The position numbers and the translations under genes are program-made. DNA of 44,256 nt from Candidatus Martarchaeota archaeon (GTDB lineage Archaea > Micrarchaeota > Micrarchaeia > Micrarchaeales > Micrarchaeaceae), in the NCBI GenBank assembly GCA_023473425.1, contig JAMCYG010000013.1, positions 1 to 44,256 of the forward strand, read 5' to 3'. The notes under the pieces are model-generated. The model did not search any database. It was not told the origin of the DNA and saw only the letters and a program-made list of their open reading frames with translations. This document shows positions 16,066 through 24,272 of the stretch, in pieces. Position 1 is the stretch's first letter. Every line of letters begins with the position of its first letter.

Positions 16066-16689
16066 TCAGCGCCTGTCGAGTCTTAGATTGCTGTTGAGAT
16101 CCATCCTCGAGTATTTCGACTTCTCAAAATCCTTCTCTAGCATCGACATGATAACCTCGTCAGAGTACTTTCCATCCGCGGATTTCGCACTCTCACGAAG
16201 CACGCCTTCGCGCTTAAATCCTATCTTTTCCAGTATGCGTATTGACGGCTTGTTATCCTTGAACGATATTGCGGACACCTTATGTACCTTAAGCTCCTTG
16301 AATGCGAATGAGACTATGAGCGAAACAGCGTACCTTCCATAGCCCTTTCCATGATAGTCCTTGCCAAGCCAGTACCCTATCTCGCAGCTATTGTTATTCT
16401 GGTCGATCTTCGTAATTGCTACAACTCCTATAAGATCGCCTTTCTCATTCTGTACCCCAAAATGAAATGCCGTGCCCGAAGTCGCGGCGGCGATTGTATA
16501 CTCTATAAGGCCTATAGCATGTTCAACAGTATACGGGTATGGGAATGAGCCAACAGGTGCAATGTTGTGCGCCAGCTCCTTATAATTAGCGAGATGTGCC
16601 AGCCTCTCCGCGTCATTTATTTCTAAGCCTCGTAGCGATGCGACACCGCCGTTGCGCTCCGTGCCCATAAACCCTGCCAATTCATCCAC
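16066..16689 (-). CDS. GNAT-family N-acetyltransferase (RimJ/RimL-like)
   Basis: IGVVAITKIDQNNNSCEIGYWLGKDYHGKGYGRYAVSLIVSFAF, ISFKDNKPSIRILEKIGFKREGVLRE. Confidence 0.92.
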   Translation of the reverse strand: MDELAGFMGTERNGGVASLRGLEINDAERLAHLANYKELAHNIAPVGSFPYPYTVEHAIGLIEYTIAAATSGTAFHFGVQNEKGDLIGVVAITKIDQNNNSCEIGYWLGKDYHGKGYGRYAVSLIVSFAFKELKVHKVSAISFKDNKPSIRILEKIGFKREGVLRESAKSADGKYSDEVIMSMLEKDFEKSKYSRMDLNSNLRLDRR

Positions 16690-16715: not shown

Positions 16716-17429
16716 CTATCGGCGCATGCCAAAGTTTGTTGCTATCTCCTTTTCAGCTAGCTTCTGAAGCGTACTGTTTGCAGACTTCCTTACACTCTCG
16801 TCCTCGTCGCTGCGCAATTTCTGCAGCGTCTTTTCAGGGGCGCGGAGGCAGTTGGCCACAGCCCACCTTACATTCGAGTCCGCATGATTTCCAAGCCTCT
16901 TCAATGTGTCCAGTTTTGTATGTTCGTTATCCGCAACACACTCCAAGACCAGATAATCACGGTCGTGCGATAGCTTCTCAAGCACGCGCGCATAGCTAGT
17001 GACTGCTGCTACTAGCATACGTATCCCTGGTCGTTTATCCTTAGAGAAGGCGTCATGAATTCTGAATGTGGCATGTACATTCTTTATGAGATTCTCAGAA
17101 ATAGCATCATCTTTGTCGTGAACATTGCCGGTTATGACTCTTTCCATTACGCCATCAAGAACTTCAGGATCATCATCATTCTTAGCAAGGAATGCCAGTA
17201 CTTCAAGGTTCTGCGACAGGCTTGCAAGGCGACGCCTTGCTTCTGCATTGCCATGCTCTGCGTAAAACCTCTGTTCCTCTTCCGGCTCATAACTGGTTAT
17301 ATACGGATTAGTTTCGGTGCGAAGGATTTGGATAGGGCTAGGGCCGATGGTTTGCCTGTCCTCATTCCATAGACCATCAAGTTGCAACTGTTTTCCCTGC
17401 ATATGCGCATTTTTCAAACGAGTGCTCAT
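16716..17429 (-). CDS. HEAT/LRV-like repeat protein
   Basis: Repeats such as LKRLGNHADSNVRWAVANCLRAPEKTLQKLRSDEDESVRKSANSTLQKLA. Confidence 0.7.
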   Translation of the reverse strand: MSTRLKNAHMQGKQLQLDGLWNEDRQTIGPSPIQILRTETNPYITSYEPEEEQRFYAEHGNAEARRRLASLSQNLEVLAFLAKNDDDPEVLDGVMERVITGNVHDKDDAISENLIKNVHATFRIHDAFSKDKRPGIRMLVAAVTSYARVLEKLSHDRDYLVLECVADNEHTKLDTLKRLGNHADSNVRWAVANCLRAPEKTLQKLRSDEDESVRKSANSTLQKLAEKEIATNFGMRR

Positions 17430-17846: not shown

Positions 17847-17902
17847 TTCAGACAAGGCGTAGTGCAGATTCAAGTTTGTGCGCCTTCATTTAGGGGGGAG
17901 AA

Positions 17903-19897
17903 ATGAAGCAGGCAAAATACATTACCGATGATATAGAGGGGGCGAAGCTGAGCAGGTCCCACATAAAAGTAATGCTGATCGCAGGGATGAGCTTCTTCAC
18001 GGATGCGTACGATCTTTTCGTGATAGGGGTCGTCCTCTTGATGCTGCGTTCAACGTTCACCCTCGGCACTTTCCAGCTAGGCATTCTGGCGAGTGCCGCA
18101 CTATTCGGGGCTGTGATTGGACCTGTCCTATTCGGAAGGGTTGCTGACAGGTTCGGCAGGAAGAGCACTTTCTGGATTACCGTAACTATACTAATAATAG
18201 GGGCTCTTGGCTCTGCGACATCATTAGGGTGGCTTCAGCTTGTTATTTGGAGATTCGTTCTGGGCATAGGTATAGGCGGTGACTATCCTATAAGCTCGAC
18301 AATAGTCGCCGAATACGCGAACAGGAATGACCGCGGCAAGCTGGTGGCTTCCACGTTTTCAATGCAGGGATTTGGTATAGCTGCAGGCGTGGCTGCTGCA
18401 TTCCTGCTGCTCCATTTCGGTATTCCGTCCGGCTATAGCTGGAGGCTTCTTCTGGCATTTGGCGCAATACCTTCAGTAGCCATACTATATTACAGGCTCA
18501 AGTTCAAGGAAACACCTACCTACAATCTTATGAACGGGAATGTTACGGAGGCTATGAAGACCATGGGCCTCGGTACCAAGACCATATCTGGCGGCAGGCT
18601 GCGCCTGCCCAAGATAAAGCTTCGCGACTTCATGCGCCAGCATTGGAAGATTGTCATCGGGACTGCCCTTGCATGGTTCCTGATGGACATATCGTACTAC
18701 GGCACTGGAATATTTACTCCATATCTTGCGTCGCTATTTGGCTTCTCGGGCGTCTATGCGGCTACAAAAGTATCTGCTCTCGTTCTGGTACTTTTTGCAG
18801 TGCCTGGCTACTGGATAGCTGTAGCGCTTATAGATAGGGAGGGAAGAAAGCCCATGCAGGCAATAGGCTTCCTTGTGATGGGGGTGGCATTCTTAATTCT
18901 TTCCATTTACGGCAGCGCATTATTGGCCTTCTCTTCCGCTGCATTCTTCGCGCTGTACGGGATTACTTTTCTATTCACTAATTATGGGCCGAACACTACC
19001 ACTTACGTATATCCGGTTGAAACGTATCCGACAAGCATACGTGCCACTGGCCACGGCATAGCTGCGACGTCTGGCAAGCTCGGTGCCGCCATATCTGCTA
19101 TGCTCTTTCCAATAGTGATAGAGGCGATAGGCAAATTCAGCCTGCTCGCGGTGCTCGGAGGTATAGCTTTCGTCGGTTTCTTAATAACAATATTCCTGCT
19201 TCCGGAAACGAAGAGGAGGTCGCTTGTCGAGACATCTGGTGAGGCAGAGCTAATGATGGTCACGGCAACATTGAACAACGAGTTCTCATCCCACATCGGT
19301 AGCATAAACGATGCGACTAAACTGCTACATCGCATGCTCACTTCTAACGGAAAAGACAGCGGCAATGTAATGTACAGAAGGATCAAAGACAAGGAAAGGG
19401 CCGCTGACAGGAATGTGCACAACATTTACGATTACATATCGTCTATGCGCACTGGTCTGGTCTCGTACATAGACGTATCGCATCTGGCATCGAAACTTGA
19501 TGACATAATAGACATGGAGGAGGCCGCCGCCGCCAGACTCGCGATGTACGGTGTAACAAGACCTGACAAGCCGATGAGGGAGTTCGCAGAGCTGATAGAT
19601 AAATGCGTATTTAAGACATTGGAGAGCGTAGGCCTTATGAGCGATTTGATGGCCGGCAACACCAGTGTCCAGAAGCTGCTGAAGGAAAACTACATAGCCG
19701 CTTCGGATTATGAAGGCAAAGCAGATGAGCTGCTCAGAAGGTCGCTCGGTGCACTAATGAGGCTGCAGAACGCGAAGGAAGTCATCGTGAAGAAGGATAT
19801 TTACGAGATGCTCGAGGATATAACTGATAGGTGCATCGACGTATTCGACGTACTGAATGACATTACGATGAGGTACCTGAAGGGCAATGGAGGGTAA
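17903..19897 (+). CDS. MFS phosphate:H+ symporter (PHS/Pho84-like) fused to C-terminal DUF47/PhoU-like domain
   Basis: FFTDAYDLFVIG, FGRVADRFGRK, GIGIGGDYPISSTIVAEYANRNDRGKLVASTF; C-terminal ~205 aa with DVSHLASKLDDIIDMEEAAAARLAMYGV and VKKDIYEMLEDITDRCIDVFDVLNDI as in DUF47. Confidence 0.92.
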   Translation: MKQAKYITDDIEGAKLSRSHIKVMLIAGMSFFTDAYDLFVIGVVLLMLRSTFTLGTFQLGILASAALFGAVIGPVLFGRVADRFGRKSTFWITVTILIIGALGSATSLGWLQLVIWRFVLGIGIGGDYPISSTIVAEYANRNDRGKLVASTFSMQGFGIAAGVAAAFLLLHFGIPSGYSWRLLLAFGAIPSVAILYYRLKFKETPTYNLMNGNVTEAMKTMGLGTKTISGGRLRLPKIKLRDFMRQHWKIVIGTALAWFLMDISYYGTGIFTPYLASLFGFSGVYAATKVSALVLVLFAVPGYWIAVALIDREGRKPMQAIGFLVMGVAFLILSIYGSALLAFSSAAFFALYGITFLFTNYGPNTTTYVYPVETYPTSIRATGHGIAATSGKLGAAISAMLFPIVIEAIGKFSLLAVLGGIAFVGFLITIFLLPETKRRSLVETSGEAELMMVTATLNNEFSSHIGSINDATKLLHRMLTSNGKDSGNVMYRRIKDKERAADRNVHNIYDYISSMRTGLVSYIDVSHLASKLDDIIDMEEAAAARLAMYGVTRPDKPMREFAELIDKCVFKTLESVGLMSDLMAGNTSVQKLLKENYIAASDYEGKADELLRRSLGALMRLQNAKEVIVKKDIYEMLEDITDRCIDVFDVLNDITMRYLKGNGG

Positions 19898-20768: not shown

Positions 20769-20795
20769 CCCTTGAACTTTCGGCAGCGTGATACA

Positions 20796-22406
20796 ATGGA
20801 TGCAGATGTCATACACGACTCCCACGAGGTCCTGGAATCATATCTGAAGAACAGCTCGATAGTCCAGCAGCAGATAGACAGCTACAACAGGTTTCTTCAT
20901 ATAGGGCTTCCGAAGCTTATAGAGAGCCAGAGCATAATAGAGCCGGACGTACCGAACTTCTCGGTAAAGCTTCTCGGCATAAGGATCGGGAACCCGGTGG
21001 TAATAGAATCCGACAGCTCCACAAAACCGATAATGCCAAATGAGGCGCTGGCAAGGAATCTTACATATGCGTCGCCATTATACATAACTTACGTGCCGGT
21101 TATTCAGGGAATCGAGAAAAGGGACTCGTACGACGAGATATTTGTTGGCGAGCTGCCTGTAATGGTAAAGAGCGATCTGTGCTATACCAAGAGCATGACT
21201 AGAGAGCAGATGATAAGCGAAGGCGAGGATCCTGATGATCCTGGCGGATATTTCATAATCAAGGGCACGGAACGCGTGCTCATAGGAGTGGAGGACCTCG
21301 CGCCCAACAGAATAATATGCACCAAAGAGAAGGGTAAAGGCACGGTCAGCAAAGTGTTCTCTACAAGGTACGGCTTTAGGACGAAGTGCAGCGTCACTAG
21401 AGATAGCTATGGGGTATACACTCTTTTGTTCCCGACGCTGACGAAAAGCATCGACCTTGTGCTAGTGCTCAAGGCTCTGGGTCTCACCAACGAGGACATC
21501 ATGGGGAACATAACCAGCAAGGCCGTAAAGAACGACATGCTGCTCAATATGGACCTCAGCCAGGCGAAGGAGCTGGACCAGAAGGGGGCAATACTGGAAA
21601 TAGGGAAGATAGCAGTGCCCAACCAGGCGAAGGAATACCAGATAAAGAGGGCGCAGCAGCAGCTCGACACCTTCATACTTCCGCACGTGGGATCCGACTC
21701 GAAGATGAGAGAGGAGAAAGGCAGGTACCTGATACGCATGGCTGAGCGCGCATCGCTCGTTGCGTACGGCAGGATAAAGGGCGATGATAAGGACCACTAC
21801 AAGAACAAGAGAATCAAGCTTGCCGGCGATCTCATGGAGGAGCTGTTCAACCATGCGCTCAAGTTCTTCGTAAGGGACGTCAAGTACCACATAGAGAGGA
21901 CCGTGGCAAGGGGAAGGAAGCTTACGTTTAGGACTGCGATAAACCCTGACACCATAACAGACAAGATATTATCAGCAATGGGCACAGGATCATGGCCTGC
22001 TGGGCAAAGCGGAGTCTCGCAGGTGCTCGACAGGGTTAACTACATATCTGCTCTTGCACACCTCAGGCGCGTCAAGTCGCCTCTGGCAAAGAAGAGGCAG
22101 CACTTTAAGGCGCGTGATGTTCATGGGACTCACTTCGGCAAGCTATGCCCAAGCGAGACTCCAGAAGGCGTTGAGGTCGGGCTTACTAGGTACCTTGCCA
22201 CGATGGCAAGAGTGACGGTCGGTGCTGACGAGCAGATGTTCAAGGACAAGCTCAAAGAGCTGCAGATTCTCGACACGTGGATCGAGGCAGCTGATGAGAA
22301 AGAGGCCGACAAAGTAAAGAAGAAGATAGAGAAGGAAGAGGAGAAAGTGGCAAAGGAAGAGGCAAAAGCGGAGAGAGCAGTGCAGCACGCCGGCCCAGCC
22401 AATTGA
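20796..22406 (+). CDS. rpoB2: DNA-directed RNA polymerase subunit B'' (Rpo2N)
   Basis: GGYFIIKGTERVLIGVEDLAPNRI, SPLAKKRQHFKARDVHGTHFGKLCPSETPEG. Confidence 0.97.
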   Translation: MDADVIHDSHEVLESYLKNSSIVQQQIDSYNRFLHIGLPKLIESQSIIEPDVPNFSVKLLGIRIGNPVVIESDSSTKPIMPNEALARNLTYASPLYITYVPVIQGIEKRDSYDEIFVGELPVMVKSDLCYTKSMTREQMISEGEDPDDPGGYFIIKGTERVLIGVEDLAPNRIICTKEKGKGTVSKVFSTRYGFRTKCSVTRDSYGVYTLLFPTLTKSIDLVLVLKALGLTNEDIMGNITSKAVKNDMLLNMDLSQAKELDQKGAILEIGKIAVPNQAKEYQIKRAQQQLDTFILPHVGSDSKMREEKGRYLIRMAERASLVAYGRIKGDDKDHYKNKRIKLAGDLMEELFNHALKFFVRDVKYHIERTVARGRKLTFRTAINPDTITDKILSAMGTGSWPAGQSGVSQVLDRVNYISALAHLRRVKSPLAKKRQHFKARDVHGTHFGKLCPSETPEGVEVGLTRYLATMARVTVGADEQMFKDKLKELQILDTWIEAADEKEADKVKKKIEKEEEKVAKEEAKAERAVQHAGPAN

Positions 22407-22412
22407 GGTGTT

Positions 22413-24272
22413 ATGATGAGCGATCACAGCGAATCCAAGAAAGAGACCGGGAAGCATGGCAAGTGCTATGTATACCTGGATGGAAAAGCGATAGGTTATG
22501 TCAGGGACGGGCGTGCATTCGCCGAAGAGGTCAGAAGGAACAGGAGGAACGGAATAGTTTCTGGAGAGATAAACGTCACCTACGTCGGCAAGATCAATGA
22601 GGTGCACATAAACGCAGACCACGGGAGAGCCAGGAAGCCGTACATTATTGTAGAGAACGGCGTAAGCAAGCTCACGCCAGAGCTTAAAGAGAGGCTCAAG
22701 AACAATGAGATTAACTTCAATTACCTGATAAGGCGCGGAGTCATAGAGTTCCTTGACGCCGAAGAGGAAGAAAACGCGTTCGTGGCTGTAAGAGAAGAGG
22801 ACATAAAACCGGAAACCACGCACTTGGATCCAGACCCTGCATCCATGTTCAGCCTTACTGTTAACAACATAGTGTTCCCGGAATACAACACAGTAGGAAA
22901 GCATTCACTGGCATCAGGCTCTGTGAAGCAGGGGCAGGGGCTCTATGCGATCAACTTCAACAACAGGTACGACTCGAGAGCTTTCCTTATGTACTATCCG
23001 CAGAAGCCAGTGGTCAACACCACGATCTACAGGACGCTCAATCTAGAGAGGCATGCCTCAGGGCAAAATTTCGTCGTTGCCCTGTCAACGTACTATGGCT
23101 ATAGCATGGACGACGCAACGATACTTAACAAGGCAGCCGTCGACAGAGGCCTGGGTCGTGCAGCATACTTCAAGTCGTTCGTCGACGAAGAACGCAGATA
23201 TCCCGGAGGCCAGCAGGACACGTTTAAGATACCGCCTGCTACCGCAGAAGGCTATCTGGGCGAACATGCATACTCAAAGCTCTCCGAGGATGGTATAATA
23301 GAGAAGGAGCAGAGTGTGGGCGAAGGCGACGTCATAATAGGTAAGGTGTCGCCTCCGAGGTTCATAGAGGAGCAGACAGGCATAGGTATGACTGAAGAGC
23401 GAGGAAGGGACAATTCCACATCGCTTAGGGCTAGCGAAGAGGGAGTTATAGATGACGTGGTCATAACCGAGACCACTGGCGCTACGAAGCTCGTAAAGGT
23501 TAGGATGAGGAGCCAGAAGATCCCTGAGATTGGAGACAAGTTTGAGTCAAGGCATGGGCAGAAAGGAATAGTGGCGCTTCTCGTGCCACAGGAGGACATG
23601 CCGTTCACGAAGGAAGGGGTCATACCGGATATGCTGCTCAATCCTACGAGCATACCAAGCAGAATGACATTCGGGCACATGCTCGAGACGATGGCCGGCA
23701 AGGTCGGGGCGCTGGAGGGCAAGATAATAGATGGCACGCCGTTTTCAGGCAAGAAAGGCAAGGCGAGGATAGACGATTACGGGTCAATTCTCGAGAGTTT
23801 CGGCTTTGACAAGTTTGGGGATGAGGTGCTTTACGATGGCAGGACAGGCAGGCAGTTCCCTGCGAAAATATTCCAGGGTGTTGTGTTCTACAACCGCCTT
23901 CTTCATATGGTAAGCCTTAAGCAGCAGGTCAGATCCAGAGGCCCGGTGCAGATACTAACTAGGCAGCCAACAGAGGGCAAGCCAAGGCGCGGAGGCCTTA
24001 GGTTCGGGGAGATGGAGCGCGACGCTTTGGTAGGCCACGGAGCATCTCTGCTCCTGAAGGAGCGCATGCTAGAGCAGAGCGACAAATGGGAAGTCTGGGT
24101 ATGCAAGAAGTGCGGAGACATAGGCTACTATGACTATGTGAGGAACATGCCAGTCTGCCAGGTCGACGGCCCTGGTTCGCTCGTAAGCGTCGAGATAAGC
24201 TATGCGTTCAAGCTGCTGCTCGATGAGATAAAGGCAATGCATATACTGCCGAAGATAACGGTGAACGATTGA
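22413..24272 (+). CDS. rpoB1: DNA-directed RNA polymerase subunit B' (Rpo2C)
   Basis: GDKFESRHGQKGIVALLVPQEDMPF, RPRRGGLRFGEMERDALVGHGA-type motif. Confidence 0.97.
   Translation: MMSDHSESKKETGKHGKCYVYLDGKAIGYVRDGRAFAEEVRRNRRNGIVSGEINVTYVGKINEVHINADHGRARKPYIIVENGVSKLTPELKERLKNNEINFNYLIRRGVIEFLDAEEEENAFVAVREEDIKPETTHLDPDPASMFSLTVNNIVFPEYNTVGKHSLASGSVKQGQGLYAINFNNRYDSRAFLMYYPQKPVVNTTIYRTLNLERHASGQNFVVALSTYYGYSMDDATILNKAAVDRGLGRAAYFKSFVDEERRYPGGQQDTFKIPPATAEGYLGEHAYSKLSEDGIIEKEQSVGEGDVIIGKVSPPRFIEEQTGIGMTEERGRDNSTSLRASEEGVIDDVVITETTGATKLVKVRMRSQKIPEIGDKFESRHGQKGIVALLVPQEDMPFTKEGVIPDMLLNPTSIPSRMTFGHMLETMAGKVGALEGKIIDGTPFSGKKGKARIDDYGSILESFGFDKFGDEVLYDGRTGRQFPAKIFQGVVFYNRLLHMVSLKQQVRSRGPVQILTRQPTEGKPRRGGLRFGEMERDALVGHGASLLLKERMLEQSDKWEVWVCKKCGDIGYYDYVRNMPVCQVDGPGSLVSVEISYAFKLLLDEIKAMHILPKITVND

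Follow-up and report, generated by a model that had tools for sequence, protein, structure and literature searches.

A putative phosphate:proton symporter of the MFS fused to a DUF47/PhoU-like domain in Micrarchaeota and Thermoplasmata: a candidate for control in cis

Introduction

By what means PhoU-family proteins hold phosphate transporters in check has long been an open question, since regulator and transporter are as a rule separate molecules whose contact is difficult to capture. The principle of joining an MFS phosphate transporter to a phosphate-status domain is known from the plant SPX-MFS proteins (PHT5/VPT), in which SPX, a sensor unrelated to PhoU, is placed at the N-terminus. For PhoU-like proteins, a survey of 926 bacterial genomes tied the clades to Pst, Pit and NptA transporters only (PMC13170248), and neither 'major facilitator' nor 'archaea' occurs in its text. 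There, PitR is defined as a regulator encoded by a separate gene beside pitA/PiT, and NptA is a sodium-phosphate cotransporter that carries a C-terminal PhoU-fold domain, with a clade of its own, on the same polypeptide. Staphylococcus aureus NptA without the fused domain kept import and showed changed regulation; the domain is not needed for import, affects growth when phosphate is in excess, and acts as a repressor of PhoPR (PMC13170248). Given this precedent, fusing a PhoU-type domain to a phosphate transporter is not new in principle.

Here we describe a gene from a stretch of archaeal DNA of 44,256 nucleotides (the window), the product of which combines an MFS transporter with a DUF47/PhoU_div domain. 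As judged from sequence, the new element would be this combination, as the PhoU-fold fusion (NptA) and the phosphate-status domain on an MFS transporter (SPX-MFS) are both known already. The first-pass annotation had known of no description of the architecture; this stands for the combination, no description of which was found in the literature searched (a collection that lacked most subscription papers), and does not extend to the principle of a PhoU-type fusion, which is known from NptA.

Results and discussion

The fused gene and its surroundings

The gene and its parts lie in the window as follows.

17903..19897, + strand: whole fused gene, 664 aa, MFS (PHS/Pht1-type) plus DUF47/PhoU_div (single frame, Pfam, AlphaFold2 mean pLDDT 90.5)
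17893..17900, + strand: SD-like GGGGGGAG just 5' of the ATG (direct sequence reading)
17903..19237, + strand: putative MFS phosphate:H+ symporter half, aa 1-445, 12 predicted membrane helices (Pfam, NCBIfam, PDB search, AlphaFold2, Foldseek, PiPT mapping)
19199..19240, + strand: join, short stretch aa 433-446 between TM12 and DUF47 helix 1 (alignment, AlphaFold2 model)
19241..19885, + strand: DUF47/PhoU_div domain, aa 447-661, six-helix PhoU bundle (Pfam, PDB search, model, Foldseek)

The frame runs from the ATG at 17903 to the stop at 19897 on the + strand with no internal stop, in agreement with the single 664-aa ORF of the first-pass annotation. Its proposed division into an MFS head (~445 aa) and a DUF47 tail (~205 aa) was borne out for both halves by Pfam, PDB sequence search and AlphaFold2/Foldseek concordantly, and the motifs quoted for each half are found exactly in the translation. 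A full-length AlphaFold2 model built from 33 aligned fused proteins (mean pLDDT 90.5, pTM 0.79) ends TM12 at aa 432 and starts the first DUF47 helix (aa 447-480) after a domain boundary at about aa 446. S445 and E447 at the join are invariant in an alignment of 18 fused Micrarchaeota sequences. A free DUF47 protein made from an internal start was considered and rejected, as the alignment holds no conserved start codon at the join.

Across related loci no conserved co-directional partner or operon gene was found around the fused gene. A divergent gene for a GNAT (RimJ-like) acetyltransferase (window 16066-16689, - strand) recurs near the fusion in 11 other loci with 34-63% identity, and in the window it is separated from the fused gene by a HEAT-repeat ORF (16716-17429). 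Close 3' of the fused gene (window 20772-24272, + strand), two genes (544 + 619 aa) encode a split RNA polymerase subunit B; an Rpb5-type (rpoH) gene stands before them and an rpoA1-like gene after them.

The DUF47 tail

In the full-length protein the PhoU_div/DUF47 model (PF01865) matches aa 458-650 with 3.1e-07 and 30.4 bits, above its gathering cut-off of 24.4, and the tail searched alone gives 1.1e-08 and 35.2 bits; TIGR00153, a hypothetical equivalog in DUF47, reaches 21.6 bits against a cut-off of 104.3. A sequence search of the PDB with the tail led to the PhoU-like 3l39 (1.5e-10). Modelled alone, the tail is a six-helix bundle (pLDDT 92.2), for which Foldseek lists 3l39 (TM 0.84/0.88), 2iiu and 2olt (DUF47), followed by PhoU 1t72 (Aquifex) and 4q25 (Pseudomonas). 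As all top matches have the PhoU/DUF47 fold, a placement of the tail outside this clan, which the first-pass annotation had named as a possible objection, fails. The acidic motifs of the bundle are located as follows.

19394..19408, + strand: E498xxxD502, first PhoU-type E(D)xxxD motif (invariant in 33 fused proteins)
19499..19513, + strand: D533 D534 xx D537, acidic cluster (invariant in 33 fused proteins)
19712..19726, + strand: E604xxxD608, second E(D)xxxD motif (invariant in 33 fused proteins)
19814..19828, + strand: E638xxxD642, third E(D)xxxD motif (invariant in 33 fused proteins)

PhoU proteins are recognised by E(D)xxxD as their signature motif (PMC5686610). The 33 fused proteins behind the invariance come from three groups; when stand-alone DUF47s are included in the alignment (window numbering), E498, D537, E604 and D608 remain invariant, with D502, D533 and D642 close to invariance, and the first two E(D)xxxD motifs are also retained in the stand-alone proteins. 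The 12 helices of the protein and its RxGRK motif between TM2 and TM3 would, by the established topology of MFS transporters, place the tail in the cytoplasm.

The six-helix PhoU bundle and the E/D-xxx-D motifs are shared with the DUF47/PhoU_div/PitR regulators of PiT (PF01865; 3l39, 2iiu, 2olt), and the nearest relatives of the tail are stand-alone DUF47 genes, mostly adjoining PiT. Here, by contrast, the domain is covalently joined to an MFS transporter, which confirms the earlier proposal of a DUF47 domain attached to an unrelated transporter superfamily, and the window's genome lacks PiT. Compared with PitR as a separate gene beside pitA/PiT (PMC13170248), the tail differs in being fused to an MFS protein in a genome without PF01384. 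With NptA it shares the layout only, a phosphate transporter and a C-terminal PhoU-fold domain on one polypeptide (PMC13170248): there a sodium-phosphate cotransporter with a PhoU domain of its own clade, here an MFS protein with a tail of the DUF47/PitR family.

Candidate control in cis

We were interested whether other phosphate transport genes accompany the fusion. In nine genomes of the f1 family with the fusion, the window's own included, there was no match to PiT (PF01384), no PstB-level ABC ATPase (best ~141 against a 343-bit cut-off) and no separate PhoU (PF01895), the sole weak match (in G267) being the fused tail itself. The window's genome, which is 89% complete, holds a single DUF47. 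With regard to recognised families and to this completeness, the fused gene is the sole recognised phosphate transporter, and its tail the sole recognised PhoU-family domain, in the f1 genomes checked. Two relatives of the f2 family (G161, G112) carry the fusion plus a PiT with an adjoining DUF47 gene.

It is plausible, and on balance favoured, that the DUF47 tail regulates the putative MFS phosphate importer in cis, in line with the PhoU-like brake or phosphate sensor proposed by the first-pass annotation. Placed in the cytoplasm, as the 12 TM helices predict, the six-helix tail would bind metal and/or phosphate (or a phosphate-signalling ligand) via its E/D-xxx-D clusters when cytoplasmic phosphate is sufficient; the ligand-bound tail would then pin or uncouple the MFS half from inside, and uptake of the presumed substrate, phosphate, would be throttled without a separate regulator gene. 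This is supported by both domains scoring above Pfam cut-offs, by PiPT and 3l39 as the best structural matches, by the conservation of site residues and acidic motifs, by the recurrence of the fusion, by the origin of the tail among PiT-partnered DUF47s and its occurrence on at least two MFS backbones, by f1 genomes without PiT, PstB-level ABC transporter or separate PhoU, by the single DUF47 of the window's genome and by the lack of a conserved co-directional partner gene; the nearest experimental precedent is S. aureus NptA. Furthermore, the genome G554 carries a fusion (of the group II described below) and gave no match to the receiver domain (PF00072), so no two-component target would be needed there. 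Control in cis is weakened by unfused relatives that have the same ten site residues and manage without the domain, by the possibility of an old fusion that was lost repeatedly, which would mean a dispensable tail, and by the fused PhoU domain of S. aureus acting also in trans on PhoPR.

Action in trans, with the tail reporting the transport status to a signalling protein, is a rather unlikely alternative to control in cis. It would parallel the action of PhoU, PitR and the NptA PhoU domain with PhoR; in S. aureus the NptA domain represses PhoPR (PMC13170248). A possible receiver would be the single PAS-HisKA-HATPase kinase/REC pair of these genomes, in which the kinase gene is directly followed by a receiver-domain gene in the window's genome (L248, contig C22, 1-1875 and 1872-3200) and in f1 relatives; essentially one such pair was found per searched Micrarchaeota genome. 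Nevertheless, the pair is not close to the fused gene (contig C22 versus C12), nothing ties it to phosphate, and G554 has the fusion without any PF00072 match.

More doubtful still is a structural or storage module, for dimer formation, transporter stability or metal-phosphate buffering, that leaves the flux unregulated. PhoU-fold proteins bind metal clusters and self-associate, dimerisation of S. aureus PhoU reportedly being the subject of one study, and many unfused relatives share the transport site; the invariance of the acidic ligand motifs and the origin of the domain in a regulator family tied to phosphate transporters argue against such a module and are consistent with control in cis.

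The MFS half and its substrate

Pfam assigned the head to Sugar_tr (1.9e-50, aa 25-443) and MFS_1 (7.4e-34), both above the curated cut-offs; at E<=10 only MFS families were matched, and Na_Pi_cotrans was not among them. The fused protein has no Pfam match to an SPX domain, and the head opens with TM1 at aa 18. Among NCBIfam models the phosphate:H+ symporter TIGR00887 is best with 297.6 bits, more than 140 bits ahead of the next. The best PDB matches by sequence were rice PHT1-11 (9.5e-68) and PiPT (9.5e-54), and Foldseek with the full-length model, which has all 12 membrane helices, returned PiPT or OsPHT1-11 structures on ranks 1-12, PiPT being the best match (TM 0.81 on target).

Mapping onto PiPT showed ten of ten site residues to be identical: D34, D37, D127, Y128, Q155, W258, D262, Y266, N364 and K392 correspond to PiPT D45, D48, D149, Y150, Q177, W320, D324, Y328, N431 and K459. 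Y150, D324, Y328 and K459 have been mutated by others, according to PDB entry titles; the other PiPT positions serve phosphate and proton handling. Many close unfused MFS relatives keep the same ten residues without a DUF47 domain.

The head therefore shares with the PHS symporters (TIGR00887; Pho84, PiPT, plant PHT1) the 12-helix MFS fold, the best sequence and structure match and the complete PiPT site; it differs in scoring below the TIGR00887 cut-off and in its 215-aa DUF47 tail, which is absent from the matched solved PHS/PHT1 chains. As the equivalog cut-off of 610.3 bits is not reached, phosphate as the substrate is inferred from these likenesses, which point to a PHS-type (Pht1/Pho84/PiPT) importer in the cytoplasmic membrane that would take up inorganic phosphate together with protons. 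A different substrate, e.g. another oxyanion or an organic acid, with the PhoU tail then reading a different signal, would fit the missed cut-off and the known fallibility of homology-based substrate calls for MFS proteins; it is quite improbable in view of the ten site residues, the distance of TIGR00887 to the next model, the phosphate transporters as top PDB relatives and the f1 genomes checked, which hold no other recognised phosphate importer.

Distribution of the fusion

A search of 301 Micrarchaeota genomes detected the fusion in at least 20, i.e. about 20 besides the window's own (48-66% identity; one cut at its 5' end), including the closed single-contig genome of Ca. Micrarchaeum sp. 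A_DKE; in one further relative (85% identity) the contig ends before the tail. Within the Thermoplasmata at least 44 of 400 sampled genomes carry it: 38 belong to group I (38-53% identity, with two Micrarchaeota-like copies in the MAGs G611 and G430) and at least six of the 400 to the more distant group II, which was also found in 18 of the 117 genomes of one order. The fusion is rare in the Thermoproteota (TACK; the phylum of L070), where it occurs in 2 of 398 genomes and unfused relatives are common; unfused MFS relatives are present in bacteria too.

The MFS-DUF47 fusion is thus confirmed as a real single gene that is widely conserved, and the architecture, common in two archaeal groups, is no one-off or local accident. 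The first-pass annotation had pointed to a stop or frameshift near nt 19240 as a possible source of error; none is present at the join, and the same join recurs in about 20 other Micrarchaeota genomes. An artefact would be a DUF47 match by chance, or two genes run together through a faulty assembly or frame, as the halves in different frames of the relative L081 might suggest; it is ruled out by this conservation (one closed genome and dozens of Thermoplasmata included) and by the strong fold match of the tail, so that we give it practically no weight.

The split in L081 is probably a frame error in that MAG, and the sequence was left out. Apparent tails in L088, L106, L107, L085, L104 and L083, seen by tblastn past aa 450, turned out to be downstream ORFs without DUF47, and L236, a 683-aa frame that looked like an extra fused kind, holds a 234-aa stand-alone DUF47 gene inside a long open frame. 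The fused genes of G611 and G430 (L144, L145), obtained in the Thermoplasmata search, are 52-53% identical to the window's and nested in the Micrarchaeota clade, which may reflect either a transfer between symbiont and host lineage or symbiont contigs binned into host MAGs.

Evolution of the two halves

A tree of 77 DUF47 domains unites all 35 fused tails in one clade (100/99), nested among stand-alone DUF47s, with a single change of the fused/solo state. For the nearest archaeal relatives, the gene directly 3' of the stand-alone DUF47 is PHO4/PiT in eight of eight tested cases, and likewise in L129, a Thermoplasmata MAG locus, with gaps of 0-42 bases and one exception of 168; the statement of the first-pass annotation that DUF47 proteins are usually separate polypeptides encoded beside PiT holds for all of these. 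The domain descends from the PiT-partnered family, and we read this as an MFS transporter having taken over a PitR-type partner from PiT.

The tree of 78 MFS halves, on the other hand, needs five changes of the fused state, and group II groups with unfused relatives, apart from the window's group. A single fused clade is rejected on this tree (p-AU 6e-67), much of which is probably due to group II being far from the rest. Pairwise distances of the MFS and DUF47 halves are correlated (r 0.75; 0 of 2000 permutations), as co-inheritance predicts. The DUF47 halves forming one clade and the MFS halves not, one regulator module is found on at least two MFS backbones. This could be due to an old fusion from which the tail, being dispensable, was lost several times, or to the DUF47 tail having moved between MFS paralogues. 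The group-II fused proteins L167 and L164 keep the asparagine that corresponds to PiPT N431, whereas their unfused neighbours L202-L213 have glycine, which gives no more than a hint of a link between the tail and phosphate transport or specificity.

Taken further, and held with somewhat less than even confidence, the fusion may represent a fourth transporter partner of the PhoU superfamily: a PitR-type regulator that left PiT to become a covalent cis controller of archaeal PHS-type MFS symporters, came to sit on at least two MFS backbones by transfer or by differential retention, and works without PhoR/PhoB-like signalling. The fusion suggests that PhoU-like partners extend beyond the Pst, Pit and NptA families. 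As a covalent pair of 664 aa, with no other recognised importer or PhoU protein in the genomes checked, the protein offers a self-contained object for structural work and transport assays, and a fuller annotation is obtained for this transporter of acidophilic Micrarchaeota and Thermoplasmata.

In L129 (2109-5437) three genes follow one another, for DUF47, a PiT-like protein and an unfused PHS-type MFS protein, and this order may illustrate how regulator and MFS gene came together.
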